From the NCBI GenBank assembly GCA_021324015.1, contig JAJPJX010000093.1, positions 62,001-126,000 of the forward strand: DNA of 64,000 nucleotides. Reading direction: 5' to 3'. Shown here piece by piece: positions 44,197 through 62,868 of the stretch (within the stretch, counting starts at the first letter, position 1; every line of letters begins with the position of its first letter). This stretch comes from Solibacteraceae bacterium (lineage in GTDB: Bacteria; Acidobacteriota; Terriglobia; Bryobacterales; Bryobacteraceae). The position numbers and the translations under genes are program-made. Under the pieces are notes generated by a model, which was not told the DNA's origin, searched no databases, and saw nothing but the letters and a program-made list of their open reading frames with translations.

Positions 44197-44301
44197 GTAA
44201 AGATTCCTGCCTCGAACACGTCCAGTGTACCCTACTTCCCGGCAGCGGCGAAATTTCCCGCGATCCCCGGGGTCGAGACAGGAATGCTGCCCGCTGTCGT
44301 G

Positions 44302-45312: not shown

Positions 45313-45619
45313 AATCGACTGCCTCTACAGTCTCGATGCATCTCGCTATGCATCTGTTTCGCCAATCTCGCCAGCCGTGCGCGGGAGCGATCTGCCAACC
45401 TGTTTACAGGGACTTAGCGGCACGTCTCCGCCCCCCGCACCCCGCTATACCATGGCCGGAAAACACCGCCGGTGGTGGTTTTCAGCCATGCTGTCCGGTG
45501 GCACTCGAGTGTGAAGGAACGCACCCGCAACAGTACCCTCCGCGCCGGGCCGCTGTCCCCGGGCGCCTACAATAAAAGGTAATCGGCTTTGGTCGTCTCG
45601 GCCCCGGACGCGGCGCATC
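45313..45619. other. Intergenic region between divergent genes with an inverted repeat
   Basis: This 307-nt gap separates the Gly-rich protein gene (leftward) from a GT39-like gene (rightward). It contains the long inverted repeat 45451-45490 and TACAAT at 45568-45573, a possible -10 for the rightward gene, without a clear -35. Two copies of ATGCATCT occur at 45336-45343 and 45349-45356 near the left gene. No open frame with a convincing start was seen. Confidence 0.6.
45451..45490. repeat. 40-nt imperfect inverted repeat
   Basis: Outer arms CATGGC (45451-45456) and GCCATG (45485-45490) are exact; inner arms GAAAACACC and GGTGGTTTTC pair with one bulged base, around a short GCCG-type loop. 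It may be an operator, a small transcript terminator or a remnant of a mobile repeat. Confidence 0.5.
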
Positions 45620-47272: not shown

Positions 47273-47278
47273 GTGGCT

Positions 47279-49885
47279 CTATTCCACCGGCAAACTGCTG
47301 CGATTGCCGAACACGCTCCGGCCCTCCACCACCGCGGCGATCGCCAGCGGTACGGCCCGCCCCGGGGGCGCATCCCGCGGCACTTCGAAGCGGATCTCCT
47401 CCACGCCGGTCAGCCCGGGTGCGCCCGCGGCTGAAATCAGCCGGGCGCCGTGATGGTGCACGCCGACAATTACGCCGTAGACCGGCGGATCTTGCGGTCC
47501 CAGCCCCGTAGCGAACAGGCGCAGCTCTTCCCCCCGCCGCGCGGGCCGCTCCTCCGTCACCAAGCTTCCATCGGCGTGCAGCAGGACCGCCTGCAAGCCC
47601 CCGCCCGCGGCGCGCATCTGGAAAATGCCGGGTGCCGCGGGCAGTACCTGCACCTCCCTCACCACCAGGGCTTCTCCGGCGCGCAGCCTGACCTTCACAC
47701 GGCCAGGCGCGAGGCGGGCGGGAACCAGCACCGTGACGGCTTCTTGCAAGCCGAAACGGCACAGCGCCAGAATGCGGGCCGCCCTGTCGCCGAACCACAC
47801 CGAGACGCCATGCAGCGCAAGCGGCAGTTGTTCCGGAGGATCCGCCGCGGTGCCCGCGCGCGGCGAGAAAACGTCTCCGTACGTTGCGGAAACCTCCGCC
47901 AGTTCCACCGGCAGGCGGCCCAGCACAGCCCCCGCGGGAACCGCTCCTTTGAGACCGCTGGCGAAGCCGCCCCCCACAATGGTGACGATCCCCCCCGGAC
48001 TGACGCCCTGCCGCACATCGTCGCGCCACCCGCCTCCGCCCGTGATCGCCTCGATGTAGGGCTTGCCTGGGTAGGGCGTCAGCTTCACCGGCTCTTCGTC
48101 CGGATTGAATAGCCAGAAGTCCCGCGTCGGGAAGTAGCGGACAAGTTCCGCGTCTGCCGCCGCTCCCAGATCGCGTGCCCACACCACTGGCGAAGCGTCG
48201 ATGTTCGCGTCGTTGTAGACCACGCCGTAGTGAAAGGAATGCGCGGGGCCGTAGCGCACCAGCACGACGTGCTCTCCTCCGCGTTCCCGCAACTGCCGCA
48301 GCGCCTCGGCCCGCGGCGTGAACGTGGCCGAGACCGTCCACGGGAGCAGCAGTCCACTGAGGATGGTCACGCCCGCGCTCGCGAACACCAGCGCCACCGC
48401 ATACCGGGAAATCACCCGGCCCGCCCGCCATGTGCGCATCACGCGCAGGCCTTCCAGCACCGCCAGCAGTAGCAGTCCCGCGAGGGGCGCGTCGTAATGC
48501 GGGAAGAAAAACGGGTACAAGGTGTTCCCCGCCAGCACGACTCCGGCCGCCAGCAGCGGAACACGCAGCCGGCGCCGCTTCCAGGCCAGTGGGAGGAACA
48601 GCAGCGGCAGCGTGAACAGCGGTTGCAGGTAGAAACGCCAGAAGGCCTTCAGCCGCTCCGCTTGCAGGCCCCACCGGAATTGCGAGCGGTAGGCGTCCAA
48701 CTGCCAGTGAAAGACATCGGCCAGGTCTTTGTGGCGGTGAATGCCCGGCGCGTCTGTAATAGGAGCCTGCCAGAAGAACGACTGCGGCGTGCCGTAGATC
48801 CGCTGGTGCAGGCTGTAAGGCATCCACAGCGCATGCCCGGTGACCCGCCAGTTGTAGTACGCCGTGCCTGCCGCCAGCACCGCTGCCGCGGCGGTCAACG
48901 GCAGCGCCACCCGCGTCACCCGCAGGTGCTTCGGCGTACCTTTCGCGCGCACCAGCCACACTCCCACCCAGAGCGCTAGCGGCAGGCTCAGCAGCAAACC
49001 TTCGTACGGACGGCTGTTTGCCAGGATAGCCAGCCCCAGGCCGAACAGGAGGCTGTCGCGGACTTTGGGCCCGCGCGGAATGCGCGCCCAGGCGCCCAGG
49101 GCCAGCGCGCCACCGGCGGCCGCCATCGCGCCTCCCCAGTAGGTGTTCATCCAGGGACTCGTGATGCCGAACCGGCACGCCGCCAGCAGGCCTCCCAGGA
49201 AGGCCCACTTGGGGGGCAGCCAGGCCTGAAGCATCCAGCAGATCAGCGCGCACATCAGCCCGGCGGTCAACCAGACGCCCAACCACGGCGCGAGGCCGAG
49301 CGCTTTGGCCGCCGCCATGGGCACCGCCGGCGCCACCGGATAAATCGAGGTGTAGGTCGGCTGGTGAAACACGTAAATGGTTTCGAAGTGCTTCCACAGC
49401 GGGTGGGTCGGATTGGTCAGCCGTCCGGAAGCGAACGTGTCCGCCAGCAGCAGGTAGCCGAATTCGTCGGCCACCAGCGGCTGTGGTGTGTGCAGCACCG
49501 GATCGAGCGCCAGGCGCACGAGCATCGGCAGCAGGCCCACGCAGATCATCGCCCGCGTCTTGTGACCGGCAAAAGCCGCCACGGCCCGCTCGGCCGCCGC
49601 CAGGCGCTTGCTACCCAGCCGCAGGCCGAAGAATCCCAACCCGCAGGCCACGAGCGCCGCCACCGTCTCCGCGATGTCCTGCCAGGTTTTGTCCGCGAGC
49701 GCGTGGCCCAGGTGAATCGAGGCGATGCGGAACGCGGCGTCTCGCGTGGCCCAAGCCAGCGCCGCTGCCATGCCAAACATCGCAGCCAGCGCCAAAAGAG
49801 CCGTCAGGGGCAGCCAGGCACGCTTGCGAAACGAGGGCGGCGCTTCCCCGGAGGCCCGGGCCAATTCGGGAGTAGAGGTGGCCAT
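47279..49885 (-). CDS. Polytopic glycosyltransferase with C-terminal Solibacter-type (TIGR03437-like) domain
   Basis: An 868-residue protein. Residues 1-480 are a GT-C membrane region with VADEFGYLLLAD in the first periplasmic loop and about 11 membrane segments. Residues 480-620 form an outer soluble stretch. From about 625 to 868 the sequence shows SPGGIVTIVGGGF, PAAPGIFQMRAAGGGLQAVL, EERPARRGEELRLFATGLGP and DPPVYGV, which I recognise as the ~215-residue C-terminal domain family first noted in Solibacter. Fusion of it to a membrane glycosyltransferase is unusual. Divergent from a second domain-fused glycosyltransferase with 172 nt between. Confidence 0.82.
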   Translation of the reverse strand: MATSTPELARASGEAPPSFRKRAWLPLTALLALAAMFGMAAALAWATRDAAFRIASIHLGHALADKTWQDIAETVAALVACGLGFFGLRLGSKRLAAAERAVAAFAGHKTRAMICVGLLPMLVRLALDPVLHTPQPLVADEFGYLLLADTFASGRLTNPTHPLWKHFETIYVFHQPTYTSIYPVAPAVPMAAAKALGLAPWLGVWLTAGLMCALICWMLQAWLPPKWAFLGGLLAACRFGITSPWMNTYWGGAMAAAGGALALGAWARIPRGPKVRDSLLFGLGLAILANSRPYEGLLLSLPLALWVGVWLVRAKGTPKHLRVTRVALPLTAAAAVLAAGTAYYNWRVTGHALWMPYSLHQRIYGTPQSFFWQAPITDAPGIHRHKDLADVFHWQLDAYRSQFRWGLQAERLKAFWRFYLQPLFTLPLLFLPLAWKRRRLRVPLLAAGVVLAGNTLYPFFFPHYDAPLAGLLLLAVLEGLRVMRTWRAGRVISRYAVALVFASAGVTILSGLLLPWTVSATFTPRAEALRQLRERGGEHVVLVRYGPAHSFHYGVVYNDANIDASPVVWARDLGAAADAELVRYFPTRDFWLFNPDEEPVKLTPYPGKPYIEAITGGGGWRDDVRQGVSPGGIVTIVGGGFASGLKGAVPAGAVLGRLPVELAEVSATYGDVFSPRAGTAADPPEQLPLALHGVSVWFGDRAARILALCRFGLQEAVTVLVPARLAPGRVKVRLRAGEALVVREVQVLPAAPGIFQMRAAGGGLQAVLLHADGSLVTEERPARRGEELRLFATGLGPQDPPVYGVIVGVHHHGARLISAAGAPGLTGVEEIRFEVPRDAPPGRAVPLAIAAVVEGRSVFGNRSSLPVE

Positions 49886-50057
49886 GATGCCCTTGCCGGG
49901 CCGCGGCCGCTTTCCATATCGTGCCGGCGGCCTGATTTCGCATGGTAGAATCCGTGCGGATTCGCGTCAATGCGGCCATGTGCGATTTCACTCATCGCGG
50001 CAGGCCTCGCGGGCGCGATACCCTGAGACGGTCAGGCTCGCCCGCGAGCCCTCCCGC

Positions 50058-52073
50058 ATGCGAAAGTATCGTTCGGCCGGCATCCTCTCGCTCCTGCTGC
50101 TCGCCGCCTTCTCCTTGGTGCTCTACGCGCAAGTCTTTGTTTACAATACCTTCGGACCTGAATTTCCGTTGTATTACTTCTACAGCGACGGCCAGGACCT
50201 GCACCAGATGCTGCGCAGCTACACCTATGTCAACCTGCTGTGGTATCGGCCGACTTCTTCGGCGCCGTTCTATTGGATCGGCGCCAAATTTCTCGCCTGG
50301 CACGACCTGCTCGGGTGGAAGCTGTTCCATTTCACCACGGTGCTGGCCGCCGCGTACGCCCTCTGCTGGCTCGTCGTACGGCGCCTCGGCGGCAGCCGCC
50401 TGGCTGCTTTCCTGGCCGCCATCTACTTCCTCGCGCAGCCGGGGCTCTACGTCGCTGTCATGGAGGTTTCACCTTTCGATTTCGTGCATATCCTGCTCGC
50501 CATCCTCTGTGCCGGCTTTTATTTCCAGGCCTTGCGGCTTCCCCCCGCCCGCTCCGTGCTGCCCACCGCGCTGGCCTGGCTGCTATTCGTGATCGCTCTC
50601 ACCGCCAAAGAGATGGCCCTTGCCATCCCCTTCTACCTGGCGCTGGCGAGCCTCCTGTACCTTGCCCTGGACCGCGGTGGTGAGCCCGCCGTCCGGCGCC
50701 TGCTGCGTGAGGCGTTGCGACTGCTGCCATTTTTGGCCGTGCTGCCGCTCTATTATTTCTTCCACCTGGCTCGGATCCCCCATGACGTCTTCACCGGCAG
50801 CGGTCCCTATCGGGCGGTCGCCCAGTGGTCCGTGATCCTGGGAAATCTGCGGCGCCTCCCGCTCTGGATCCTGCGCATCTATGCGTTTACCGGAGAAACA
50901 ATTCACGCCCGCATGTACCAGTCCACGCCATGGAACAATGCTGTGGGCCTCGGCGCACTCGTGCTCGTGGCCGTCGCCTGGACCCGGCGGGCGCGCCGGG
51001 ACCCCGCCTGCCGCCTCGCGCTGGGGTGGATGCTGGGCTGGATCGCCGCGTTCCTGGTGATGCCGGTTTATGCGGGCGGCTTTCTGTGGCACATCAATCT
51101 GCCCGTGGTGGGCTATTGCGTGCTGTTCGGGATGGCGCTCGCCTGGGCGCTCGAACAAATTCGCTCGCCCGCGTGGCGCCGCGCATCCGTGGCGATCTTC
51201 CTGGCCGGCGCCCTGCTCCTGGGGCGCGCCGACCTCGCCGTCGAACTCGATCGCGGCATGCACGCCACCGCCTTCCGCATCGACCACTCCTTGCTCGACC
51301 ATCCTCCCGTGCCGCTGGCGCGCCTCGGCGCCGCCCCCCTCTTCTATGTCGAGGACCGCCTGGGACTCGGCCCATGGTGGTACGGCTGCTTCGGCAGGCT
51401 CTTCAATTATGTCTATCTGCGCCACGATATCGAGGAAGTGATCGTTCCTCCGCTCGACCAGGTCCCAGAAGATCTCCGCCGGCGATGGCTGGCGCGGCCG
51501 AACGCCTTTTTCGTGCGCTATGACACGCAGTTCAACTGGCACGATGCCAGCGCGGCGTTCCGCGCCCGCGCTCTGGATGCCGCGGGTAGCCTCACCTCCG
51601 GAAACTGTGCCGCACCCGGCGAGCGCGCACCCATCCGCATCGTGTCGGGCGGCGAGGAACTCACCGACGCTGCTGGCCGTCTCTGGCAGGCGGACCGCAA
51701 CTATCGCGGCGGCAAAACTTACACTACCGGCCGGGCCATCGACGGAACGGATACGCCTGCTCTGTATCAGAGCGAACGGTTCGAGAACGGCCCGTTGGCC
51801 TATCGCTTCTGCGTGCCGGACGGCAGCTATCGCGTGACCCTCAAGTTCGCCGAGATCTGGTTCACCCGGCCCGGCGAGCGCGTCTTTGACATCCGCTTGA
51901 ACGGCTCGCCCGTGCTGCTCCGCTTCGATCCGCTGGCCGCGGCCGGCGGCCCCTACCGCGCCGTGGACCGGCAGTTTTCGGTACGCGCGGCCGGTGGCGG
52001 CATCCTCATCGAGTTCCTGCCCGTCGTCAGCAATCCCAAGATCAGCGCCATCGAGATCCTTCCGGAGCCCTAG
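50058..52073 (+). CDS. Polytopic glycosyltransferase-like protein with C-terminal malectin domain
   Basis: A 671-residue protein. Residues 1-390 contain about 11 membrane segments in a GT-C-like layout; the first loop after TM1 has FYSDGQDLHQMLRSY. Residues 500-671 are a malectin-like beta sandwich: IRIVSGGEELTDAAGRLWQA, YRFCVPDGSYRVTLKFAEIW, ERVFDIRLNGSPVL and FLPVVSNPKISAIEI. Malectin binds glucose oligomers, so the fused domain may hold the acceptor glycan. Start ATG 50058 precedes a clear first TM; the longer frame overlaps the divergent gene. TAGAAT at 49946 is a possible -10. Confidence 0.82.
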   Translation: MRKYRSAGILSLLLLAAFSLVLYAQVFVYNTFGPEFPLYYFYSDGQDLHQMLRSYTYVNLLWYRPTSSAPFYWIGAKFLAWHDLLGWKLFHFTTVLAAAYALCWLVVRRLGGSRLAAFLAAIYFLAQPGLYVAVMEVSPFDFVHILLAILCAGFYFQALRLPPARSVLPTALAWLLFVIALTAKEMALAIPFYLALASLLYLALDRGGEPAVRRLLREALRLLPFLAVLPLYYFFHLARIPHDVFTGSGPYRAVAQWSVILGNLRRLPLWILRIYAFTGETIHARMYQSTPWNNAVGLGALVLVAVAWTRRARRDPACRLALGWMLGWIAAFLVMPVYAGGFLWHINLPVVGYCVLFGMALAWALEQIRSPAWRRASVAIFLAGALLLGRADLAVELDRGMHATAFRIDHSLLDHPPVPLARLGAAPLFYVEDRLGLGPWWYGCFGRLFNYVYLRHDIEEVIVPPLDQVPEDLRRRWLARPNAFFVRYDTQFNWHDASAAFRARALDAAGSLTSGNCAAPGERAPIRIVSGGEELTDAAGRLWQADRNYRGGKTYTTGRAIDGTDTPALYQSERFENGPLAYRFCVPDGSYRVTLKFAEIWFTRPGERVFDIRLNGSPVLLRFDPLAAAGGPYRAVDRQFSVRAAGGGILIEFLPVVSNPKISAIEILPEP

Positions 52074-52133
52074 CGCGGGGCCGGTGAGTTTCGACTGCGA
52101 TAGAATGAAAGCCGCAACAGGAGTGATGATCCC

Positions 52134-53315
52134 ATGTCAAACCGTCGCAACTTCCTCCAAAGCTTGAGCACGCTGCCGCTGTTCGGCAAGGTGGGCTTGA
52201 GCGCGCCCGTAAAACGTGACTATTTCAAGGAACTGGGTATCCGGCCATTTATCAACGCCGCCGGTACCTACACCACCCTGACCGCGTCGTTAATGCGTCC
52301 GGAAGTGATGCAGGCCATCGACTACGCCTCCAAATCTTTCGTGCATCTCATGGAAGTGCACGAGGCCTGTGGCCGCCGCATCGCCGAACTGATCGGCTGC
52401 GAAGCCGCCCTGGTTACCTCCGGCGCCGCCGGCGCACTCACCCTCGGCACCGCTGCCTGCATGACCGGCAAGAACATGGACTTCGTCCGCCGGCTCCCTG
52501 ACACCACGGGCATGAAGACCGAAGTCATCATCCAGAAATCCCACCGGTACGGCTATGACCATGCCGTGCGCAATTGCGGCATCAAGTACGTGGAGGTGGA
52601 ATCCGCGGATGACCTCGAGCGCGCCATCAATCCCAATACGGTGATGATGCACTTTTTCAACGCCGGCGAACCCAACGGCCAGATCAAAGCCGCCGAGTTT
52701 GTGGCTCTTGGGAAGAAGCACAACATCCCCACCATGAACGACGCCGCCGCCGATACCCCGCCTGTCGAGAACATTTCCAAGTACCTCAAGATGGGCTTCG
52801 ATCTGGTGATCTTCTCCGGCGGCAAAGGCATCCGCGGACCGCAGAGCGCCGGCCTCCTGCTCGGGCGTAAAGACCTCATCGAGGCCGCCAAACTGAACAA
52901 TTCTCCGAACAGCGACTCCATCGGGCGCGGCATGAAGGTCAATAAGGAAGAGATCCTGGGCATGATGGTGGCCGTGGAAACCTTCATCAAGCTCGATCAC
53001 CAGGCGGAATGGCGGGAGTGGGAGCGCCGCGTCAAGACGGTGGCCGACAGCGTCGGGCCGCTGCACTCCGTCAAGACCGAGACCTTCGTCCCGGAAATCG
53101 CCAACGCGGTGCCGCACCTGCGCATTTCCTGGGATTCCTCGGTGCTGAAAATCACGCCCCAAGAGGCCGTCAAAAAACTCCGCGAGGGAGAACCCTCCAT
53201 TGAACTGCGGCCCGGAGCTAAGGACTGCCTGGAGGTGGCCGTTTGGATGCTCCAGCCCGGCGAGGCCCAAGTCGTCGCCCGCCGCATCCGCGAGGTGCTC
53301 AGAACGGCGGCCTGA
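52134..53315 (+). CDS. Tat-tagged SelA-like PLP enzyme (paralogue 2)
   Basis: A 393-residue PLP protein of the SelA/glucosaminate-6-phosphate ammonia-lyase branch, beginning MSNRRNFLQSLSTLPLFG, a short twin-arginine-like leader. It shows GIRPFINAAGTYTTLTAS, VTSGAAGALTLGTAAC, MNDAAADTPP and FSGGKGIRGPQ with the PLP lysine at 231. It is clearly related to the protein at 24924-26306 but shorter, lacking the C-terminal extension of that one. AGGAG lies about 10 nt before ATG 52134, and TAGAAT at 52101 may be its -10. Reaction unknown, probably a beta-elimination or amine transfer on an amino sugar or amino acid. Confidence 0.82.
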   Translation: MSNRRNFLQSLSTLPLFGKVGLSAPVKRDYFKELGIRPFINAAGTYTTLTASLMRPEVMQAIDYASKSFVHLMEVHEACGRRIAELIGCEAALVTSGAAGALTLGTAACMTGKNMDFVRRLPDTTGMKTEVIIQKSHRYGYDHAVRNCGIKYVEVESADDLERAINPNTVMMHFFNAGEPNGQIKAAEFVALGKKHNIPTMNDAAADTPPVENISKYLKMGFDLVIFSGGKGIRGPQSAGLLLGRKDLIEAAKLNNSPNSDSIGRGMKVNKEEILGMMVAVETFIKLDHQAEWREWERRVKTVADSVGPLHSVKTETFVPEIANAVPHLRISWDSSVLKITPQEAVKKLREGEPSIELRPGAKDCLEVAVWMLQPGEAQVVARRIREVLRTAA

Positions 53316-53387
53316 TCCGGGCGGCAGGCATCGGCAAAGCGCTGGAGGAAGAGACAGGATAAGGACCACGAGGGAACATCGCGATGA

Positions 53388-53426
53388 GGCCAGGCGGGCA
53401 GCGCCGTGCACTGACCCGCCTGGGCC
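53388..53426 (+). terminator. Hairpin after the second SelA-like gene
   Basis: Arms GGCCAGGCGGG (53388-53398) and CCCGCCTGG-g-CC (53415-53426) form an 11-bp stem with one bulge and a 16-nt loop, 72 nt after the SelA-like stop and 160 nt before the ECF sigma gene. No U-run follows, so it is a possible terminator or barrier. The rest of this 271-nt gap shows TTATTATAAAA at 53563-53573 as the only promoter-like stretch before the sigma factor. Confidence 0.4.
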
Positions 53427-53586
53427 GCGTCGAACAGATTTGACCCTGTACTGATTACTTCTTGGTCCCCTTCGCATCGGGGCTCCCCTCAGCGTAGCAC
53501 GGCGGCGGCAGCCGGTGAAGATCCAACTCCTCAATTCCCACCCCGGCCATCCGGCCAGCCTGTTATTATAAAACGCTCAGGTTTTT

Positions 53587-54165
53587 TTGGTCTGTAACGG
53601 CTTGATCTTCCAATCCTTCGACGCAGATTATATCCGGCGCCTGACCGAGGGGGACTCGGCCACCGAGGAGCACTTCGCTGCCTATTTCGGCGAACTCCTG
53701 CTGCTGAAACTGCGTTCCCGCCTGCGCTCGCCGCAGGCCGCCGAAGACGTTCGTCAGGAAACCTTGCTGCGCGTCCTCCAGAATCTGCGCCGCAAGGGCG
53801 GTGTGGAGTACCCCGAGCGTTTCGGGGCCTATGTGAACGCCGTCTGCAACAACGTGTTGCTCGAGTTTCGCCGTTCGCAGAGCCGCACCGAGGCCATCGG
53901 CGACAACGATGCCGAGCCGGCCGATCCCAGCGTCGACCACGACCGCCCGCTCATCAACGCCGAACGCCGCCTCACGGTCCAGCGCATTCTCGGCGAACTG
54001 GCCCCCAAGGACCGTGATCTGCTCCGCGCGGTGTTCCTCGAAGAGCAAGATAAAGCCGCGGTTTGCACCAGGTTCCAGGTGGATGCCGACTACCTCCGCG
54101 TCCTCCTGCATCGTGCGAAATCGCGCTTTCGAAAGGCCTATACCCAGGGAGCGGCAGGGGCATAA
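53587..54165 (+). CDS. ECF RNA polymerase sigma factor
   Basis: A 192-residue group IV sigma factor. Region 2 includes AAEDVRQETLLRVLQNL and FGAYVNAVCNNVLLEFRR; region 4 includes ILGELAPKDRDLLRAVFLEE and VLLHRAKSRFRKAY. It should redirect polymerase to a small regulon, likely including its own operon. Start is uncertain: TTG 53587 with a weak AGG upstream is the most 5' choice, TTG 53602 is an alternative five codons later. An anti-sigma factor gene follows after 70 nt, the usual partner order. Confidence 0.88.
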   Translation: MVCNGLIFQSFDADYIRRLTEGDSATEEHFAAYFGELLLLKLRSRLRSPQAAEDVRQETLLRVLQNLRRKGGVEYPERFGAYVNAVCNNVLLEFRRSQSRTEAIGDNDAEPADPSVDHDRPLINAERRLTVQRILGELAPKDRDLLRAVFLEEQDKAAVCTRFQVDADYLRVLLHRAKSRFRKAYTQGAAGA

Positions 54166-54235
54166 GCGAAAGTTCATGCGGGCTTTCTGCAACGGAACCC
54201 GAATCCGTTACACGATTGAAGTGAGGCTGTAGGTG

Positions 54236-54937
54236 ATGGACCACGAAACAGCGATTCGACTCCAGGCCGCGGAACGATACGTGGCCCGTGCTTTATCCGA
54301 GTCGGAGCGGGACGAGTTTGAGGAGCACTTCTTCGAGTGCGCGGAGTGCGCCGAGGAAGTGCGTTGGGAACAGATCTTTGTGGCCAACGCCAGGGAGGTC
54401 TTCCGGGAGCAGACCCAACGCCCCCCGCGCCCGGCCGCCGCCCCCGAGCCGGTCGCTGAGCCGCGCCGGGCCGGCGGCTGGTTTTCGTTCGGCTGGCTGC
54501 GGCCGGCGTTTGCCCTCTCCGCCTTTGCCAATGTGGCGCTGCTGCTCGTGGGGGGCTACGAGTTCCTGGAAGTGATGCCCCGGCTGCGCGCCCAGCTTGA
54601 GACCCTCCAAACCCCTCAACTCACCGCCGCTATTTCCGTGCCTACCATCGTCCGCGCCGAGCCCAAACTCATTCAGGTACCGTCGTCCATGCGTCTTATT
54701 CCCCTTTCTTTCGCCTTACCGCACCGGTTCCCGAAGTATCAGTACGAGGTCGCCAGGGAAGACGGGATGGGCAGGTTCGGCGGCTCAGTTCCCTCGCCGG
54801 CGGCTACCGACGAGGAATTGTTGCTTTCCGTCCCAGCCGCGCGCCTCACCGGCGGCGCCTGGCGTGTCAGCCTGCGCGGCATCGAGGGCTCCAGTTCCGT
54901 GGAGATAGGCAGTTGCCGGCTGCAAGTCGGGCGCTGA
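54236..54937 (+). CDS. Membrane anti-sigma factor with zinc-binding (ZAS) domain
   Basis: A 233-residue protein. The cytoplasmic N-terminus has H31, C35 and C38 in EEHFFECAEC, the HX3CX2C core of zinc-associated anti-sigma factors. A Pro-rich linker (63-78) leads to one transmembrane helix (about 90-108), and the last 120 residues face the periplasm as a beta-rich domain ending SSSVEIGSCRLQVGR. It should bind the ECF sigma factor upstream and release it on an envelope signal. ATG 54236 is chosen over the adjacent in-frame GTG. Confidence 0.88.
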   Translation: MDHETAIRLQAAERYVARALSESERDEFEEHFFECAECAEEVRWEQIFVANAREVFREQTQRPPRPAAAPEPVAEPRRAGGWFSFGWLRPAFALSAFANVALLLVGGYEFLEVMPRLRAQLETLQTPQLTAAISVPTIVRAEPKLIQVPSSMRLIPLSFALPHRFPKYQYEVAREDGMGRFGGSVPSPAATDEELLLSVPAARLTGGAWRVSLRGIEGSSSVEIGSCRLQVGR

Positions 54938-54954
54938 CCTCGGAGGAATCTGCC

Positions 54955-55650
54955 ATGGCTTCCAAGTATAACTATCACGCCAAAGCCGTCGCTGTGGCCG
55001 GCGCGCTCACCCGGCCCCTGGCTATCGACCTGGGAGAGATGGCCAAAACCGAACTTATCCAGACCGAGGGCGGCTATCATTCCTCGCGCCTGGAAAATCA
55101 CCGCGTGCATGAGCTCTTCTCGATCGGCGCGGCCTACACCCAGGTGGTTGCTTCCGAGGGCCCGGAGGGTCACTTCAACACCCTGGCCATCGCCACTATC
55201 GAGAATCTCAACGTCCTGGACCTGGTCAAAATCGAGCGCCTCACCGCCCGCCTGGTCGGCCACCACCGCGCCGTGGATTTTGAGACCTGCGAGCACCCCT
55301 GGGTGATTCCGATGGGCAGCACCATCGAGAACCTGCGCATCGCCGGCCGCGCTGTCCAAATCACCCCGGACGGGGGCTTCACACTGGACTTCGACCAGCC
55401 CCACAGCTACGACGAGTGGAAGAAGACCCAGCACCACTACGCCACTCCCGGCCATGCCTTTCAAGTGCCTGGGTTTGGCTCCATCACTTGCCGCAAGCTG
55501 GAGGTGCTGCCTATCCCCGGCCGCAGCCCGGAAAAGCCCCACCGACTGCACCGGCTCGCTATGCTTAGCCTGGATCTAGGCAGCCCGGTGCACGGCCACA
55601 TCCGCTTCGCCATGATCGACGAGAACGGCAGCCCGCCCAAAGGGCTCTGA
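54955..55650 (+). CDS. Unrecognised 231-residue protein in the sigma/CHAT cassette
   Basis: No family recognised. The protein begins MASKYNYHAKAVAVAGALTR after GGAGGAA 8 nt upstream, has no signal peptide or membrane segment, and is predicted mostly beta from alternating hydrophobic residues (LNVLDLVKIERLTARLVG, GFTLDFDQ). It is rich in His, 17 by eye. Positioned 17 nt after the anti-sigma gene and 66 nt before the CHAT lipoprotein gene, it is very likely co-transcribed. It could be a substrate, a scaffold or a sensor for the CHAT protease; none is shown by sequence. Confidence 0.75.
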   Translation: MASKYNYHAKAVAVAGALTRPLAIDLGEMAKTELIQTEGGYHSSRLENHRVHELFSIGAAYTQVVASEGPEGHFNTLAIATIENLNVLDLVKIERLTARLVGHHRAVDFETCEHPWVIPMGSTIENLRIAGRAVQITPDGGFTLDFDQPHSYDEWKKTQHHYATPGHAFQVPGFGSITCRKLEVLPIPGRSPEKPHRLHRLAMLSLDLGSPVHGHIRFAMIDENGSPPKGL

Positions 55651-55700
55651 GGCGGAATCCACCGATTCCATTGATCCTCCCAGCCGTGTGCGAGAAGATT

Positions 55701-55716
55701 GGGATGGTCCCATCCC
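55701..55716 (+). repeat. Perfect inverted repeat directly before the CHAT start codon
   Basis: GGGATGG-TC-CCATCCC, 7-bp arms, ends 1 nt before ATG 55717 and would bury the initiation region in a hairpin, or serve as operator. The ribosome site is otherwise weak (GAGAAG at 55692-55697). Confidence 0.45.
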
Positions 55717-58173
55717 ATGCGCGCGGCGCGATTTGTGTTTGCTCTGCTGGCGTTGGCCGGTTGCTCCGCGCACCGGGCGCCCCCCGATTCGCTCTACCGG
55801 GATGCCGACCAGTTGCGCCGCGGCGGCCGCCTCGAAGAGGCGCTGGCGGAAGCCAGCCGGGGCCTGCGGCAATCTCCCGGCAAGACTTCCGCCTGGCACT
55901 GGCGCTTCCGCCTGCTGAGCGCCGAAATCCTCCTCGACCGCGGGGATAGCCGCCAGGCCCTGGATCTGCTCCAGGATGCCGCTGAGCCTCCCGATGGCGA
56001 CCTCCAGGCCCGCCGCGCCATGGACCTGGGCGACGCCTGGTTCTGGCTGTCGCGGCGCACCGAGGCTCGCCGCTACCTGGAACAGGCTGCCGCCGAGGCC
56101 GCGCGCTCGCCCGATGCCGCCCTCCGCGCCGAAGTGGAGCTAAGCTGCGCCAAGCTCCCGGAAACCTTCGAACAGACCGAGGCCGGGTACCGGCGGGCGC
56201 TGCAATTCGCCTCCCGCGCCCAGGACCTTTACCTCATTGCCATGGCATATGGAGGCCTCGGCTACAACCGAGTGCGCTACGGACGTTACGACGAGGCCCT
56301 CCCCTGGCTGGAAGCCGCGCGGGTCTCCGCCGAGGAGGCCGGCGCCCAAAGATTCCTCGGCAGCACCCTGGGCAATCTCGGCTGGGCCTACGCCCGCCTG
56401 GGAGACTTCGACCGTGCCTTGAAGCTTCTGGAGCGCGCCGCCGCCATCGCCGCCCAGATCCAGGACAAACGCAACCAGCAGGTCTGGCTCTATGACATGG
56501 GTAATCTCTACCAGCGGCGTGGAGATTTTTCCAACGCCATCTCCTGCCTGCGCCGTGCCTGGGTCCTCGCCGAGGACCGCGACGACCAGGACTGGCTCTC
56601 CACGGTCCTCAACCGCCTCGCCGAGGTTTACCTGGACGCTGGCGACCTTTCGGCCGCCCGCGAATTCAGCCGGCGCTCGCTCGACCTTCGCCGCCGCCTC
56701 GCCGATCCCCGCCTGCTGGTCTACTCCGAACTCACTTCCGCCCGTATAGAGAGCCTCGGGCTGCCGTTTCCCCAGGCCGAAGCTTCCCTGCGCCGCGTCA
56801 TCAGCTCCGCGGAACAGCAGGAGGAACCCCGCGTGGCCTGGGAAGGGCATTCCGCGCTGGCCGCCCTCTACCGTGACCACGGCCGCTGGCCGGAAGCTGG
56901 CGCCGAGTACCGCCGCGCCACCGCGATCATCGATGCGGAGTGGTCCGGGCTGCGCCGGGACGAGTCCAAGATCACCTTCCTCACCAACTTCATCCGCTTC
57001 TACCAGCAGTACGTGGATTTCCTGGTCCGGCAGGGTCGTCCCGCCGAAGCCCTGCGCGTGGCCGAATCCGCGCGCTCCCGCGTGCTCCAAGAGCGGCTGG
57101 GGCTGGGCCACTCTGCCGGAACCTCCTTGCAGGTTGCCGAGCTTCAGAAACAGCTGGCGGGCTCCCGCACCGCGCTGCTGGCCTACTGGCTCGGCCCGGA
57201 GCACTCCTTCCTGTGGCTCATCACCGCGGATGCGTTTGTCCAGCGCCCCTTGGCGTCCGAGGCCGATCTGACTCACATGGTGGAGGAGTACAACGCTCTC
57301 CTGCTCAACCGCCGCGACCCACTCGAGCGTGCCTACGCCGTGCGCTCGCGGTTGTATCGCACGCTGCTGGCGCCCATCCGCTCCCGCGTCAAGCCCGGAT
57401 CCACGGTGGTGATCGTGCCCGACGGCGCGCTGCACAACCTCAATTTCGAAACCCTGGTGGTCGAGGAGCCGCGCCCGCATTACTGGATCGAGGATGTCAC
57501 TATTTCGGTGGCCCCCTCCATCGAGATTCTGGGCTTCGCCTCGCCGCCCGCCCGGCGCCGCCCCCGCCTGCTCCTCATCGGCGACCCCATTCCGCCAGGC
57601 CGCCAGTACCCCCCCCTGCCCCACCTGAAGGACGAGTTGGCCATCCTGGAGCGCTGCTTTCCGCCCGGTGCCCGCCGGGTTTACGCCCGCGCGGAGGCCA
57701 CGCCCGCGGCCTATCGCCAAGCGCAGCCCGCGCGCTACGACGTCATTCACTTCGCCGCGCACGCCACGCCCAATCCGGAGAGCCCGCTAAACTCCGCCGT
57801 GGTGCTCTCGCCGCAAGGCGAGACCTACAAACTGTACGCCAAAGATGTGCTTGACCTCCCCATCGGCGCCCGCCTGGTAACCGTCTCGGCCTGCAGCAGC
57901 GCCGGCCCGCGGTCCTACTTCGGCGAGGGACTGATGGGCTTCAGTTGGGCCTTCCTCGAAGCCGGCGCGCAGCACGTGGTGGCGGGCCTCTGGGACGTGG
58001 ACGACGCCGCGGCCTCGCGTCTCATGGGGGACTTCTATCAAAGGATCGCCCGTGGCGCCGCGCCCGACCAAGCCCTGCGTCTCGCCAAGCTCCACCTGCT
58101 CCACTCCGATACCCTCTACCGCAAGCCTTTCTTTTGGGCCCCGTTCGAGATGTTCACCCGCTACATCTTCTGA
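55717..58173 (+). CDS. TPR-CHAT lipoprotein (caspase-like protease)
   Basis: An 818-residue protein. The front MRAARFVFALLALAGCSAHR has a lipobox LAGC, so it is a lipoprotein. Residues 30-420 hold about 9-10 tetratricopeptide repeats (AYGGLGYNRVRYGRYDEAL, TLGNLGWAYARLGDFDRAL and others), and residues 520-818 form a CHAT peptidase domain with H682 in HFAAHATP and C726 in VSACSSAGP, the caspase-type dyad, plus GLWDVDDAAA near the end. CHAT proteases cut partner proteins after activation via their TPRs. Placed behind an ECF sigma and anti-sigma gene, it may be the output of an envelope stress switch. Confidence 0.88.
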   Translation: MRAARFVFALLALAGCSAHRAPPDSLYRDADQLRRGGRLEEALAEASRGLRQSPGKTSAWHWRFRLLSAEILLDRGDSRQALDLLQDAAEPPDGDLQARRAMDLGDAWFWLSRRTEARRYLEQAAAEAARSPDAALRAEVELSCAKLPETFEQTEAGYRRALQFASRAQDLYLIAMAYGGLGYNRVRYGRYDEALPWLEAARVSAEEAGAQRFLGSTLGNLGWAYARLGDFDRALKLLERAAAIAAQIQDKRNQQVWLYDMGNLYQRRGDFSNAISCLRRAWVLAEDRDDQDWLSTVLNRLAEVYLDAGDLSAAREFSRRSLDLRRRLADPRLLVYSELTSARIESLGLPFPQAEASLRRVISSAEQQEEPRVAWEGHSALAALYRDHGRWPEAGAEYRRATAIIDAEWSGLRRDESKITFLTNFIRFYQQYVDFLVRQGRPAEALRVAESARSRVLQERLGLGHSAGTSLQVAELQKQLAGSRTALLAYWLGPEHSFLWLITADAFVQRPLASEADLTHMVEEYNALLLNRRDPLERAYAVRSRLYRTLLAPIRSRVKPGSTVVIVPDGALHNLNFETLVVEEPRPHYWIEDVTISVAPSIEILGFASPPARRRPRLLLIGDPIPPGRQYPPLPHLKDELAILERCFPPGARRVYARAEATPAAYRQAQPARYDVIHFAAHATPNPESPLNSAVVLSPQGETYKLYAKDVLDLPIGARLVTVSACSSAGPRSYFGEGLMGFSWAFLEAGAQHVVAGLWDVDDAAASRLMGDFYQRIARGAAPDQALRLAKLHLLHSDTLYRKPFFWAPFEMFTRYIF

Positions 58174-58189
58174 CGTTGCCCCGCCGTCA

Positions 58190-59122
58190 TCATGCCCGGA
58201 AGACCGGCTCCAGCGCGGAGACCCTGATCTTCAGGCTCGACAGCTCTGCCGCGCTCAACCGGGGCAGCGGGGCGGCCGCCAGTTCCAGCGCCAGGTCAAA
58301 AATCCGCTCGTCGCCGGGTGGCACGGCGGCGGTGATCTCCTGGTTCAGGGTGAATCGCAGCGCCAGGCGAGCCATCTCGCGGTCGTCGATCGGCTGATAC
58401 CAGCACTTCGGATACTTGCGATCAGACGGTTTCAGGTCCGCCGGCCACTTACCGAACGCCAGGGCCTTCAACGCCATGCGGGCCATGCGCCTGGATTTCG
58501 CTTTGGCCAGAATCTGCGGCCCAAAGCCGGCGTTCTCCCAGGCGTTGACGTTGAGCGGAAACAGCACGCTGTCCAGTTCGAGCGCGTCCATCAGGCGCAG
58601 AGCGGCCGGCGCATCATGGGCGGAGAAGCCCAGGTACCGGACCTTGCCCGCCTTCCGGGCCGCCGCAAATGCCTCCGCCGCTCCACCCGGCGCGAGAATC
58701 TTGTCCACGTCCTCCGTCGAACCCACGGCGTGAAACTGGTAGAGATCCACATGATCGGTGTGGAAGCGCCCCAGGGTGCGCTCCAATTCCTCGCGCGCCC
58801 CCTTTGCGTCGCGGCGCGTGGTCTTTTCCGCCAGGAAGACCTTGTTGCGATAGGGCCGCAGCGCCTCCCCCAGCTTGATTTCCGCTTCCCCGTCGAAGTA
58901 CGACGGGGCGCAGTCGAAATAGTTCACACCCCGGTCGTACGCTGCCGCAACGCGCCGCGAGCCCTCCTCCTGCGAAAGGCCGCAAACCACGATGCCGCCG
59001 AAAGCGATGATGGAGAGGTCGATTCCGTCCTTGTAGGTCCGCCTGGGTAGAGGCCCTGCCGCACCGTATGCCGAGGCGGTGCTGGCAGCAGCCGCCGTGC
59101 CGAGAAACTTGCGACGATCCAT
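58190..59122 (-). CDS. Tat-tagged aldo/keto reductase
   Basis: A 310-residue aldo/keto reductase with a twin-arginine leader MDRRKFLGTAAAASTASAYG. The catalytic tetrad is visible: Asp and Tyr in NYFDCAPSYFDGEAE, Lys in KVFLAEKTT, His in DLYQFHAVG. Substrate side chains vary. AGAGGA before ATG 59122 supports this start over the ATG at 59143. Members of this Tat-tagged group are frequent in Acidobacteria and Planctomycetes; an NADPH-requiring reductase outside the cytoplasm is odd, unless it folds with cofactor before export. Convergent with the CHAT gene. Confidence 0.88.
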   Translation of the reverse strand: MDRRKFLGTAAAASTASAYGAAGPLPRRTYKDGIDLSIIAFGGIVVCGLSQEEGSRRVAAAYDRGVNYFDCAPSYFDGEAEIKLGEALRPYRNKVFLAEKTTRRDAKGAREELERTLGRFHTDHVDLYQFHAVGSTEDVDKILAPGGAAEAFAAARKAGKVRYLGFSAHDAPAALRLMDALELDSVLFPLNVNAWENAGFGPQILAKAKSRRMARMALKALAFGKWPADLKPSDRKYPKCWYQPIDDREMARLALRFTLNQEITAAVPPGDERIFDLALELAAAPLPRLSAAELSSLKIRVSALEPVFRA

Positions 59123-59161
59123 TGGCCGTGATCCTCTGTCCATTGTAATGCCGCCGCTCTG

Positions 59162-59201
59162 TGGACAATCTACGGGCCCGCAGGTAGAATGCCTCCGGCT
59201 A
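59162..59201 (+). promoter_or_regulatory. ADOP gene promoter
   Basis: TGGACA (59162-59167), exactly 17 nt, TAGAAT (59185-59190), a near-consensus housekeeping promoter. Start of transcription is expected near 59197, only a few nt before ATG 59201. The ATG at 59189 lies inside the -10 element, so it cannot start a transcript from this promoter. Confidence 0.6.
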
Positions 59202-61696
59202 TGACCAGGCGATCCATTTCGGTTCCTGGGAGGTACTTCGGTGGCCGCCTCTGGCCGGACGTCCGGTATGCCTTTCGCGGCATGCGTCGCAGCCCCGCGT
59301 TTACCGCGGTGGCCGTGCTCTCGCTGGCGCTCGGCATAGGCGCCAATACCGCCATCTTCAGCCTCATCCACACCTTGATGTTCCGCCGCATGCCCGTGCG
59401 GGCCCCGGCACAGTTGGTGGAACTCATCATCCAATACCCCGGTGAGCCGCCGGGAAGCTTCTTCTCCCTGGCAAGCTACGAGTACTACCGGGATCACAAT
59501 CACGTTTTGTCGGCGCTTTCCGGAGTTCACCGGTGCCGCTTCCATGTCGGTGGCGGCGGGCTCGAAGCGGAAGTCGTGGATGGAGAATGCGTGACGGGGA
59601 ACTTCTTCGGGATGTTGGGGGTGCGGCCCGCTCTCGGGCGGCTGGTAGAACCAGAGGACGACCGCGTGGGACAGGCCGATTCCGCCGTGGCCGTGCTGAG
59701 CTGGTCTTATTGGAAGAACCGCTTCAACCTGGATCCGGCCGTTCTGGGCAAAAGCATCGTTGTGGAAGGCGTGCCCGTGACGATTATCGGCGTGGCGCCG
59801 CGCGACTTTTTCGGACTGCGGGTCGGAGCTCGCACGGACATCTGGGTGCCTTTGGCGGTGCAGCGGCTGATCGATCCTGGCAAGGGGATCGGCGGCCTGG
59901 CCCTGGTCGGGCGGCTGAAGCCCGGTGTGTCCATCGGGCAGGCGCGCGCGGAACTGGCGGTTCTGTTCCGGTTCACCCTCGAGGAGAGGGCCAAAGCCAG
60001 CCCGGACCCCCTGCTCCGACGGCTCAAGTTCACGCTGGAACCCGCCGGCGCCGGTCTGTACACGGAACTGCGCGACCGGTTCGCCGGGCCGCTGGCAGCG
60101 CTGATGGCCGCCGTCGCCCTGCTACTGCTGATCGCCTGCGCCAACGTGGCCGGTATGCTGCTGGCGCGCGGCGCGGCGCGCCGCCGGGAAATGGCATTGC
60201 GCGTGGCTCTGGGCGCCGGCCGGTCCCGCCTGCTGCGCCAGCTATTGACGGAATCTCTGCTGCTCTCCGCAGCCGGCGGCCTGCTGGGTGTCTTCCTGGC
60301 CTATTTCGGCGCGAGCGTCTTGGTGCGGATCATGGCGTCCGGGCGGTTCATCGGCGGGCCGCCTCACATCCCAGTGAGAATTCTCCCCGATGCGCAGGTT
60401 CTGCTCTTCACTGCCGGAATCGCACTGCTGACGGCCGTGCTGTTCGGGCTGGTTCCCGCCTGGAGCGCCTTTGCTTCCCACCCGGCGTGCTCCCTGCGTG
60501 ACGCTGGAAGGGCGGGCGAGACGAGGTCACGCCGCCGCCTCGGCAAAGGCCTGGTGGTGGCGCAAGTGGCCTTATCGGTGGGGCTGTTGAGCGCCGCGGG
60601 CCTGTTCCTCCGCAACTTGTCGAATCTGGAGCGCGCCGATCTGGGCTTCCGCCGCGGCGACATTCTGTTGATGACCCTGGATCCGGCGCGCAGCGGATCA
60701 AGCGGGGAGCAGTTGTCTTTCGCCTATCAGGACGTGCTCGGGCGCCTCGAGACGATTCCGGGCGTGGAGTCAGCCACGATCTGCGCGCCAACGCCGCTCT
60801 CGGGCGCGGGCGCCAGCCGGTTCGTGAGCGTGGCCGGGCACCCGGAAAGGCCCGAAGATCGCCGTTATGTGTCCGTGAGCTGGATCGCGCCAAAATACTT
60901 CGAGACCCTGGGCACGCCGCTCCTGGCCGGCCGCGATTTCAGCTTCGCGGACCGCGCAAGGCCGCGCGTGGCCATCATCAACGATCGGATGGTGCGGTAC
61001 TATTTCCCCGGCCGCAATCCCATCGGCGAGTATGTGGCCTTCGACGGCGATCCCAAGCCTTATCAGATTGTGGGAGTGGCGGGTGATGCCAGGTATTACG
61101 AGATTCGCGAAGCCGCCCAGCGCATCATCTACCTCAACACGTTCCAATCCTCCCGCCCGGCATCCACGTTTGCGCTGCGCACCAGCGGCGACCCCCTGGC
61201 CGTAGCTCCCACGGTTCGCCGCAGCGTGCGCGAATGGATGAAGGATGTGCCGGTGGTGCGCCTTGCCACTCTCTCCGAACAGGTGGATGCCACCATCGTT
61301 CCGGAGCGGCTCATCGCCATGCTCTCCGGGGTCTTCGGCGCTCTGGGCGCTCTGCTCGCGGCGATAGGCATTTACGGGTTGCTGGCGTACACGGTGGCGC
61401 GCCGGGCGGGCGAGATCGGTGTCCGCATCGCGCTGGGCGCCACACGGACTGCCATCTCCCGGATGGTGCTGCGAGAGGCGCTCGGGATCACCTGTGCCGG
61501 CCTGCTCCTCGGAGTGCCCCTGGCATACTGGGGCCGGAGCCTGGCGACGGGCCTGGTCCACGACCCGCCGGTGACGGGTGCATTCCCCATCGCCTTGGGT
61601 GCCGTGGGGATGGTGACGATCGCGCTCGCCGCGGCGTACACCCCGGCCCGCCGGGCCGCGCGCGTGGACCCCATCGAAGCTCTGCGCTGCGAATGA
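59201..61696 (+). CDS. ADOP-type (FtsX/MacB-like) permease
   Basis: An 831-residue membrane protein with two tandem MacB-type halves: N-terminal TM (TAVAVLSLALGIGANTAIFS), a large periplasmic domain (about 65-280), FtsX core with three TM segments (LLLIACANVAGMLLARG, LLSAAGGLLGVFLAYFG), then a second copy from about 430. This repeat with no adjacent ATPase is the acidobacterial duplicated orphan permease family. The substrate is unknown, and an ATPase must be supplied from elsewhere. ATG 59201 fits a promoter that puts the first transcribed bases right at this codon. Confidence 0.88.
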   Translation: MTRRSISVPGRYFGGRLWPDVRYAFRGMRRSPAFTAVAVLSLALGIGANTAIFSLIHTLMFRRMPVRAPAQLVELIIQYPGEPPGSFFSLASYEYYRDHNHVLSALSGVHRCRFHVGGGGLEAEVVDGECVTGNFFGMLGVRPALGRLVEPEDDRVGQADSAVAVLSWSYWKNRFNLDPAVLGKSIVVEGVPVTIIGVAPRDFFGLRVGARTDIWVPLAVQRLIDPGKGIGGLALVGRLKPGVSIGQARAELAVLFRFTLEERAKASPDPLLRRLKFTLEPAGAGLYTELRDRFAGPLAALMAAVALLLLIACANVAGMLLARGAARRREMALRVALGAGRSRLLRQLLTESLLLSAAGGLLGVFLAYFGASVLVRIMASGRFIGGPPHIPVRILPDAQVLLFTAGIALLTAVLFGLVPAWSAFASHPACSLRDAGRAGETRSRRRLGKGLVVAQVALSVGLLSAAGLFLRNLSNLERADLGFRRGDILLMTLDPARSGSSGEQLSFAYQDVLGRLETIPGVESATICAPTPLSGAGASRFVSVAGHPERPEDRRYVSVSWIAPKYFETLGTPLLAGRDFSFADRARPRVAIINDRMVRYYFPGRNPIGEYVAFDGDPKPYQIVGVAGDARYYEIREAAQRIIYLNTFQSSRPASTFALRTSGDPLAVAPTVRRSVREWMKDVPVVRLATLSEQVDATIVPERLIAMLSGVFGALGALLAAIGIYGLLAYTVARRAGEIGVRIALGATRTAISRMVLREALGITCAGLLLGVPLAYWGRSLATGLVHDPPVTGAFPIALGAVGMVTIALAAAYTPARRAARVDPIEALRCE

Positions 61697-61721
61697 GTCC
61701 GGCGTGCCGGGCCGCGGCCCG

Positions 61722-62462
61722 TCAGCGCGCGCTCACCGCCTGTAGCAGCAGAACCATTCCGACGGCAATGAGACCCGCATGCACATACAGCAGAAACCGG
61801 TGAGCGCTCAGGCGGCGGTTGATCGCCCGCCCCAGGAACGTCGCCACGATCACAAAGGGCAACGACAGCAAGTAGAACCGGTTGACCGCCGGAGTCCACA
61901 ATCCCGCCAGCCGGTACCCCCACAAGCCCGCCAGGCTCGCCGGCAGGAAATATCCCTGCAACGTCGCCCGAAACTGCTGCGGCGGCCACCTGCGCAGCGA
62001 GCCATAAATCACTAGCGGCGGACCGTTCATGCCGTAGGCGCCGCCCAAGACCCCCGCGCCGAATCCGAACAGCCAGGCAAGCTTGTCGCTTTTCAACTCC
62101 CGATGGTTGCCGCTGACCAATGCATGCGCGGAGAAGGCGATGATCACGGCGGCCAAAATCCCTTTGACCACCGGCTCGGCCGCGGCTCGCAGGAGCAGCA
62201 GGCCCAGCGGAATCCCCAGCATGGTCGCCAGCACCAGCCGGCCCGCGCTGTACACGTGAACCTGCCGCCAGTCCTGCACCACCACCAGGAGCGCCACGCT
62301 GACCGAGACCAGCACAGCCACCGGAGCGGCCACCTCCACCGGCATGAGGAGCGCCAGCAGCGGCACGGCCACCAATGCCTCGCCAAATCCAAACGCCGAG
62401 CGAATCAGAGTCGCCAGAAACACAACCCCCGGGATCAGAATCGCAACTCGCTCCGTCGGCAT
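61722..62462 (-). CDS. TauE/SafE family membrane exporter
   Basis: A 246-residue protein with about 8 transmembrane helices and the internal repeat of the TauE/SafE fold (LIRSAFGFGEALVAVPLLAL in the first half, FGAGVLGGAYGMNGPPLVIY in the second), the two GxG regions of the family. Such proteins export small anions such as sulfite, sulfoacetate or organic acids. It is convergent with the ADOP gene (25 nt) and divergent from padR with 73 nt between. Confidence 0.88.
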   Translation of the reverse strand: MPTERVAILIPGVVFLATLIRSAFGFGEALVAVPLLALLMPVEVAAPVAVLVSVSVALLVVVQDWRQVHVYSAGRLVLATMLGIPLGLLLLRAAAEPVVKGILAAVIIAFSAHALVSGNHRELKSDKLAWLFGFGAGVLGGAYGMNGPPLVIYGSLRRWPPQQFRATLQGYFLPASLAGLWGYRLAGLWTPAVNRFYLLSLPFVIVATFLGRAINRRLSAHRFLLYVHAGLIAVGMVLLLQAVSAR

Positions 62463-62498
62463 GCCTTTCCAGCGTAGCGCGCAGCCGCGTCAAGTCGG

Positions 62499-62540
62499 TT
62501 GACATATAGATCATCTTCATATAGAATTCCTCCATATGGA
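62499..62540 (+). promoter_or_regulatory. padR promoter with three 15-bp-spaced operator-like repeats
   Basis: TTGACA (62499-62504), 17 nt, TAGAAT (62522-62527): near-perfect promoter. The octamer CATATAGA occurs at 62503-62510 and 62518-62525, and CATATGGA at 62533-62540, all 15 bp apart; the last covers the padR ATG (62536). Transcription should start at about 62533-62536, leaving no leader and no ribosome site. The repeats are the natural candidate for PadR autoregulation. Confidence 0.6.
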
Positions 62541-62868
62541 CCTGTTGCAAGGCACGCTCGACATGCTCGTGCTCCGCACGCTGCTGGCCGGACCCCTGCA
62601 CGGATACGGCATCGCCAAAGCCATTCGCGGCGCCTCCCATGAGGCGCTCCAGATTGAGTTCGGTTCGCTGTATCCCGCGCTGAAGCGGTTGGAGGCCAAG
62701 GGCTGGGTGGCCTCCGCGTGGGAGACCTCCGAGCACCATCGCCGCGCGCGGTACTACCGGCTCACCGCGGCGGGCCGGAAGCAGTTGGTGCGGGAGCACT
62801 CCAAGTGGGCGGACTTCGTGAGCGCGGTCGGACGGGTGATGGGCCCGGTGCCGGAGGCCAAAGCATGA
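62536..62868 (+). CDS. PadR-family transcriptional regulator
   Basis: A 110-residue winged-helix protein: MDLLQGTLDMLVLRTLLAGP, HGYGIAKAIRGAS and FGSLYPALKRLEAKGWV are the PadR DNA-binding helices, and RYYRLTAAGRKQL the wing, with a short C-terminal dimer helix. It overlaps the following ADOP permease start by 4 nt (ATGA), the usual PadR-ADOP pair in Acidobacteria, and so likely controls that permease. A leaderless start is suggested by the promoter position. Confidence 0.93.
   Translation: MDLLQGTLDMLVLRTLLAGPLHGYGIAKAIRGASHEALQIEFGSLYPALKRLEAKGWVASAWETSEHHRRARYYRLTAAGRKQLVREHSKWADFVSAVGRVMGPVPEAKA

Follow-up and report, generated by a model that had tools for sequence, protein, structure and literature searches.

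A stretch of 64,000 nucleotides from a Solibacteraceae bacterium (assembly GCA_021324015.1, contig JAJPJX010000093.1; hereafter the window) carries four genes on one strand that encode an extracytoplasmic function (ECF) sigma factor, a zinc anti-sigma factor, a protein designated open reading frame 3 (ORF3), and a predicted lipoprotein combining tetratricopeptide repeats (TPRs) with a caspase-like CHAT protease domain. Comparative analysis of Acidobacteriota genomes showed that these four elements, the CHAT protein with its lipobox and an intact catalytic dyad included, are kept as a unit. The reading favoured here, held at a little less than even confidence, is that the cassette constitutes a conserved envelope-signalling operon of the Acidobacteriota, in which CHAT on the outer face of a membrane would start the destruction of the anti-sigma factor and so free the sigma factor, with ORF3 as a cytosolic accessory.

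Conservation of the four-gene unit

The distribution of the cassette was followed in two surveys, one of 200 genomes of the order and one of 297 genomes across the phylum. A single ORF3 query found matches in 49 of the order genomes and an ORF3 profile in 84; across the phylum the profile matched in 20 genomes, two of these matches (L103 and L104) being other proteins. All 14 loci with named ORF3 relatives in a species-genome collection belonged to Acidobacteriota, the scan patterns used there being derived from one subgroup only. One hundred loci were fetched and scanned with profiles of all four proteins, making 101 loci with the window and 102 ORF3 rows, as one locus (L139) holds two ORF3 copies in tandem between anti-sigma and CHAT (L139:6897-8472). 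The complete order sigma-antisigma-ORF3-CHAT was present in 71 rows, and two further rows represent the doubled ORF3. Another 13 rows had no sigma match and seven no CHAT match, each of the seven running into the end of its contig no more than 1.2 kb past ORF3; the rest comprised four ORF3-CHAT pairs, one rearranged set, and four ORF3 genes alone. The anti-sigma gene adjoined ORF3 in 94 of the 102 rows (71 + 13 + 7 + 2 + 1), and its stop codon lay at most 45 nt from the ORF3 start in 38 of 40 loci (median 12 nt). Seven additional ORF3 places were examined, of which five had all four genes (one CHAT gene being cut by a contig end) and two had no sigma gene and little or no room upstream. In total, the four genes stand in order at 76 of 108 loci, and one more locus has them with ORF3 doubled.

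Most of these loci were reached through ORF3, and a count led by CHAT is the fairer measure. At E 1e-60, the window CHAT matched 88 places in 83 of the 200 order genomes. ORF3 lies directly before 77 of these. A contig end interrupts eight of the 11 others, and the remaining three (L209, L210, and L211) are intact sigma-antisigma-CHAT cassettes that lack ORF3. Where ORF3 would lie in L211, there is a frame encoding a 114-residue, proline-rich protein with repeated PTPGSSPPP (2569-2913), maybe a product of chance. In the reverse direction, 77 of 88 merged ORF3 places are followed directly by a window-like CHAT gene, and the other 11 comprise ten at contig ends, several with a visible CHAT stub, and one orphan. 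This orphan ORF3 gene (L131:7078-8001) has a similar C-terminal end, and its genome, G073, also carries a full cassette. L131 and a second locus, L105, were excluded from the cassette counts, although both encode proteins that end much like ORF3.

No gene family in the flanks was common to more than six of 98 loci and no additional cassette gene emerged, which identifies the four genes as the unit. Outside the cassettes, 60 fetched stretches totalling 771 kb yielded just two sigma and two anti-sigma matches at the same threshold, one of the latter being the neighbour of the L105 CHAT gene. The recurrence of this gene set across many genomes is far beyond chance. The initial annotation, drawn up from the window alone, had named conserved co-occurrence of ORF3 with sigma, anti-sigma, and CHAT genes in relatives as the check on its proposal, and such co-occurrence is what the counts reveal; neither ORF3 nor this kind of CHAT gene turned up in unrelated contexts.

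The CHAT protease and its sigma switch

A tree of 128 CHAT domains (four of 132 were dropped as too short, and places fetched later are not included) united all 87 cassette CHATs in one clade with support 1.0. Among 41 non-cassette CHATs, only that of L105 fell inside this clade; at this locus (2939-8261) CHAT is found beside an anti-sigma gene, and a diverged ORF3-like gene lies inverted upstream rather than between them. The His/Cys dyad is intact in all 88 testable cassette CHATs (91 CHATs from L036-L145 and the window taken together, less three that are truncated or gapped there) and in all 41 non-cassette CHATs. A lipobox was recognized in 68 of 90 cassette CHATs by a strict rule and in 82 by a relaxed rule, compared with three of the 41 others under the relaxed rule, which was written after the strict misses had been seen and reaches further into the protein, both groups being scored alike. 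A hydrophobic stretch within the first 70 residues occurs in 33 of the 41 other CHATs, seven of 79 sigma factors, and 216 of 579 neighbouring frames. Together, the lipobox and the intact dyad point to a presumably active protease tethered at the outer face of a membrane, in line with the envelope-tethered caspase-like protease first proposed for the window.

CHAT proteins are widespread in the order, being present in 182 of the 200 genomes, and the window's source genome (8.2 Mb in 214 contigs, 98.8% complete) has five CHAT matches. Among the 41 non-cassette CHATs, which were taken from the top of the Pfam list, from the window's genome, and from ORF3-negative genomes and are thus not a random sample, 25 have a sigma and/or anti-sigma match on the same strand within 1.1 kb and 16 have none. 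The 25 comprise 12 sets in the order CHAT-sigma-antisigma, eight in the order sigma-antisigma-CHAT, and five of other form. That the association recurs, and in two orders, favours a working link between CHAT proteins and sigma switches over chance proximity. Many of the ORF3-negative genomes in the sample (sampled CHAT loci L160-L199) carry the CHAT-sigma-antisigma set.

The anti-sigma relatives have the HxxxCxxC zinc motif in 89 of 93 cases, with a further His about 28 residues earlier in 80 of the 93. A simple hydropathy rule detected a helix-like stretch in 85 of 94 anti-sigmas, followed by a conserved C-terminal domain; with the zinc part inside, this domain must lie outside if the predicted topology is correct. 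Inhibition of the adjacent sigma factor is putative and is suggested by the adjacency of the two genes.

How the operon is itself controlled was approached through the sequences ahead of the sigma gene. No shared ECF-type dyad was seen there, the top dyad occurring at eight of 77 loci and the best shuffled one at seven, and these numbers give no support to autoregulation through an ECF promoter. A TATNNT pattern, picked after looking, is found in the last 85 nt around the start of the sigma profile match at 43 of 77 loci, against 14.4 in mononucleotide shuffles. Half of the TATNCT occurrences (13 of 26) lie 21-30 nt ahead of the start of the sigma profile match, a spacing that hints at very short leaders. 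Scanning the window for the sigma-70 consensus revealed no promoter. With a housekeeping-type -10 element enriched and no ECF dyad shared, the earlier suggestion that the operon is under the control of its own sigma factor is left unproven. A terminator parting the sigma and anti-sigma genes from CHAT, the other finding that would have spoken against the initial proposal, did not appear: by a weak test, five terminator-like sites were found where shuffles predict 3.8, four of them within the anti-sigma gene or at the CHAT start and one past CHAT.

In the window, all four genes originally described were recovered on the plus strand, and the zinc ligands and catalytic residues named for them are correctly placed (Table 1). 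The sigma start codon is uncertain, as an alternative in-frame TTG exists at 53602, and sigma region 4 (Sigma70_r4_2) scores 14.4 bits, under the cut-off of 25.7.

Table 1. Features of the four-gene cassette, in window coordinates
Feature	Coordinates	Strand	Basis
Candidate -10 element TATTAT/TATAAA	53564..53572	+	read from sequence ahead of sigma gene
ECF-type sigma factor	53587..54165	+	TIGR02937 47.7 bits (cut-off 42.9); Sigma70_r2 27 (cut-off 24)
Zinc anti-sigma factor, predicted membrane helix and C-terminal predicted outer domain	54236..54937	+	zf-HC2 25.5 bits (cut-off 22.2)
Zinc motif H31-x3-C35-x2-C38 in anti-sigma	54326..54349	+	
ORF3, 231 aa, all-beta, no signal peptide, distant choice-of-anchor P relative	54955..55650	+	
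TPR-CHAT lipoprotein, 818 aa	55717..58173	+	PF12770 200.1 bits (cut-off 24), E 6.8e-59; TPR families
Lipobox LAGC, CHAT residues 13-16	55753..55764	+	
CHAT peptidase domain (Pfam match)	57346..58152	+	
Catalytic His682 codon of CHAT	57760..57762	+	
Catalytic Cys726 codon of CHAT	57892..57894	+	

ORF3, a protein without a signal peptide

The third protein had been characterized at the outset as His-rich and as belonging to no recognised family. The first description holds for the window copy, whose 6.9% His is the highest among the 92 ORF3 proteins compared, and was rejected as a family trait, the median being 2.6%. The second proved wrong: 33 of 41 ORF3 members match the NCBIfam choice-of-anchor P family (NF040603) at E <= 1, with a best value of 2.2e-10, and ORF3 is accordingly regarded as a distant relative of this family. 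The alignments span about two thirds of the profile in the best cases, and the window copy itself scores 24 bits, below the family cut-off of 27. In 61 order genomes, all nine NF040603 matches at E 0.001 are cassette ORF3 genes, three of which pass the cut-off. Pfam gave only weak matches to single members, and the only sequence relative of solved structure, TOC75-3 (E 0.0039), was taken as a chance match.

Choice-of-anchor P proteins are normally anchored, as the family name conveys. Genuine members elsewhere in the phylum, the weak ORF3 matches L103 and L104 that were dropped from the ORF3 family, have a hydrophobic leader, whereas ORF3 does not. No signal peptide was evident in an alignment of 41 ORF3 sequences, in-frame upstream extensions included, and a hydrophobic N-terminal stretch occurs in only three of 92 within the first 35 residues and in seven within the first 70. 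By another measure, the N-terminus of the window copy is the most hydrophobic of the 41. On the alignment and the hydrophobicity counts, the possibility that a signal peptide had been missed was rejected.

AlphaFold2 predicts the window ORF3 to be all-beta with long strands (predicted local distance difference test score, pLDDT, 83.3; predicted template modelling score, pTM, 0.84) and a relative, L041, to be all-beta with a few helices (pLDDT 95.4, pTM 0.91). Foldseek at E 0.001 found no match in PDB for either model, nor among viral models for that of L041, and the best VIA match for ORF3 (Z 5.3, 116 residues, root-mean-square deviation 4.0) is not convincing. The fold is possibly new, which the absence of matches to these predicted models neither proves nor excludes. 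A conserved C-terminal tail with the pattern N-G-x-x-x-P closes the protein, Gly being kept in 96% and Pro in 87% of sequences. TPR domains are known to bind C-terminal peptides. The extreme C-terminus (55588-55647 in the window) often ends in WP in relatives, and the window copy deviates from this.

A role for ORF3 as a CHAT substrate or sensor had been suggested at first, and the substrate version can be made explicit: ORF3 would resemble a gasdermin or Csx30, and cleavage in its variable middle would release an active or inactive fragment. ORF3 does lie nearly always immediately before CHAT, CHAT proteases are described as cutting partners encoded next to them (PMC10028731), and two conserved beta parts flank low-confidence stretches (residues 143-149 and 161-165) in the model of the window copy. 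However, the L041 model has no stretch under pLDDT 50, and no clear fold match was found, the gasdermin-like pore RCD-1 appearing at Z 3.6 alongside unrelated entries that score the same. The predicted compartments also differ: with ORF3 lacking a signal peptide and CHAT bearing a lipobox, the two should not meet. Finally, the three intact cassettes without ORF3 argue against a substrate and led to the rejection of ORF3 as an obligatory CHAT partner. The substrate or sensor role thus went unsupported, and the substrate explanation is considered unlikely.

A candidate envelope switch and its nearest relatives

How might the four proteins work together? In the favoured model, CHAT would sit on the outer face of a membrane, where its TPR part would meet an envelope signal. 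CHAT would then cut the outer domain of the anti-sigma factor, or a partner guarding it, and further proteolysis would release the sigma factor, such that CHAT would fill the role of a site-1 protease like DegS with a fold of the caspase type instead. ORF3 would remain in the cytosol and tune the anti-sigma/sigma end by holding, stabilising, or sensing; it is assigned an accessory function because some cassettes do without it. This reading is favoured on the combined weight of the predicted topology, the co-inheritance of the genes, a correlation between CHAT and anti-sigma distances, and the precedents of Csx29-Csx30-CASP-sigma and CalpL-CalpT-CalpS. In 71 cassettes, the distance matrices of CHAT and anti-sigma are the most strongly correlated (0.78, with the other pairs at 0.45-0.66 and the best of 500 permutations at no more than 0.20), a comparison confounded by shared descent.

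The same operon could be read in the opposite direction, with CHAT as output: the sigma/anti-sigma pair would sense envelope stress and induce CHAT and ORF3 as effectors, for example of envelope protein turnover or of proteolysis leading to cell death. The position of CHAT downstream in the operon is consistent with such a scheme, as is the CHAT-sigma-antisigma order of the 12 sets among the 41 CHATs outside the cassette. On the other side, no ECF-type promoter pattern is shared ahead of the sigma gene (promoters within the operon were not searched for across loci), and CHAT distances correlate better with those of the anti-sigma than with those of the sigma factor (0.66). An output role is judged rather improbable, albeit the strongest of the alternatives to cleavage of the anti-sigma.

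Several observations weigh against the model of outer-face CHAT as initiator. Collection of most loci via ORF3 itself inflates the four-gene count. Of the 13 sigma-less loci, ten have sequence upstream (the antisigma-ORF3-CHAT sets L044, L049, L056, L058, L061, L067, L071, L123, L127, and L130) yet show no sigma match on either strand of the fetched stretch at E 0.1, so a nearby sigma gene is not a constant feature, and L102 has ORF3 and CHAT with neither a sigma nor an anti-sigma gene. The hydrophobic N-terminus rule that was applied to the other CHATs catches only 62 of 90 cassette CHATs, partly because their starts are uncertain. To these can be added the missing ECF dyad and the shared descent behind the correlations. 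Conservation of ORF3 would be unexplained if the anti-sigma alone were the target, and cleavage, binding, and localisation are all predictions.

The nearest described systems are ECF54-CHAT, CASP/craspase, and CalpL-CalpT-CalpS. In the type III-E CRISPR system, the TPR-CHAT protease Csx29 is encoded alongside an ECF sigma factor and the inhibitor of that factor, Csx30; Csx29 cuts Csx30, which relieves the sigma factor (PMC10028731). There, however, the protease is under the control of a CRISPR effector and RNA and the inhibitor is Csx30 (PMC10028731), whereas the window encodes a lipobox CHAT and, as predicted inhibitor, a membrane zinc anti-sigma factor. ECF54 sigma factors share a conserved context with CHAT, carboxypeptidase, or subtilase proteins but are discussed in the source as regulated without an anti-sigma factor (PMC8999054); the window has an anti-sigma gene in this context, as do the 94 rows in which that gene adjoins ORF3. 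CalpL, CalpT, and CalpS bring protease, anti-sigma, and ECF sigma factor into one complex, in which cleavage of the anti-sigma factor is proposed to release the sigma factor, but the protease is of the SAVED-Lon type, the trigger is cyclic oligoadenylate, and no exported protease is described (PMC11417357). DegS is a trypsin-like PDZ protease. In the DegS-RseA-RpoE pathway, an envelope protease begins the destruction of a membrane anti-sigma factor (PMC10028731), whereas in the window the candidate protease is a TPR-CHAT lipoprotein accompanied by the extra ORF3 protein. Caspase systems with ECF sigma factors and TPR proteins of another kind have also been reported (PMC8195603). The literature searched gave no description of the cassette itself; the main ECF classification lay outside this search and may already include this sigma group together with the genes around it.

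These precedents raise the question of whether the cassette serves as a TPR-CHAT-type defence or conflict system against phage. CRISPR-linked and conflict systems do include CHAT proteases and caspase-like proteins (PMC10028731, PMC8195603), and the presence of ORF3 in 84 of the 200 order genomes is patchy. Yet PADLOC matched CHAT only to a generic TPR model and, weakly, to BovA and gave nothing for the other three proteins, and no array of short direct repeats was found in the 20 kb searched (44000-64000), Cas7-11 itself not having been searched for. Conserved neighbours of any kind are lacking, and the protease is predicted to be exported. A defence function is judged very improbable.

A broader proposal, more doubtful than the model for the cassette, is that exported CHATs act as site-1 proteases for zinc anti-sigma factors in the Acidobacteriota, forming a class of envelope-signalling switches rearranged several times that would replace starters of the DegS or Prc type. 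The window's lipoprotein/ORF3 type would then be one subtype, and ORF3 would have arisen by domestication of an exported surface domain into a cytosolic protein, possibly with a new beta fold.

CHAT proteases are mainly described, in the literature searched, in intracellular defence settings. If the model is true, an exported CHAT protein tied to a sigma/anti-sigma pair would extend caspase-like proteases to envelope signalling. The outer domain of the anti-sigma factor is a directly testable candidate substrate for CHAT, and work on ORF3 can now start from its family assignment, a confident model, and the conserved tail at its C-terminus. It is enticing to consider that in these bacteria the cassette may provide a route to gene activation through the cutting of proteins at the cell surface.

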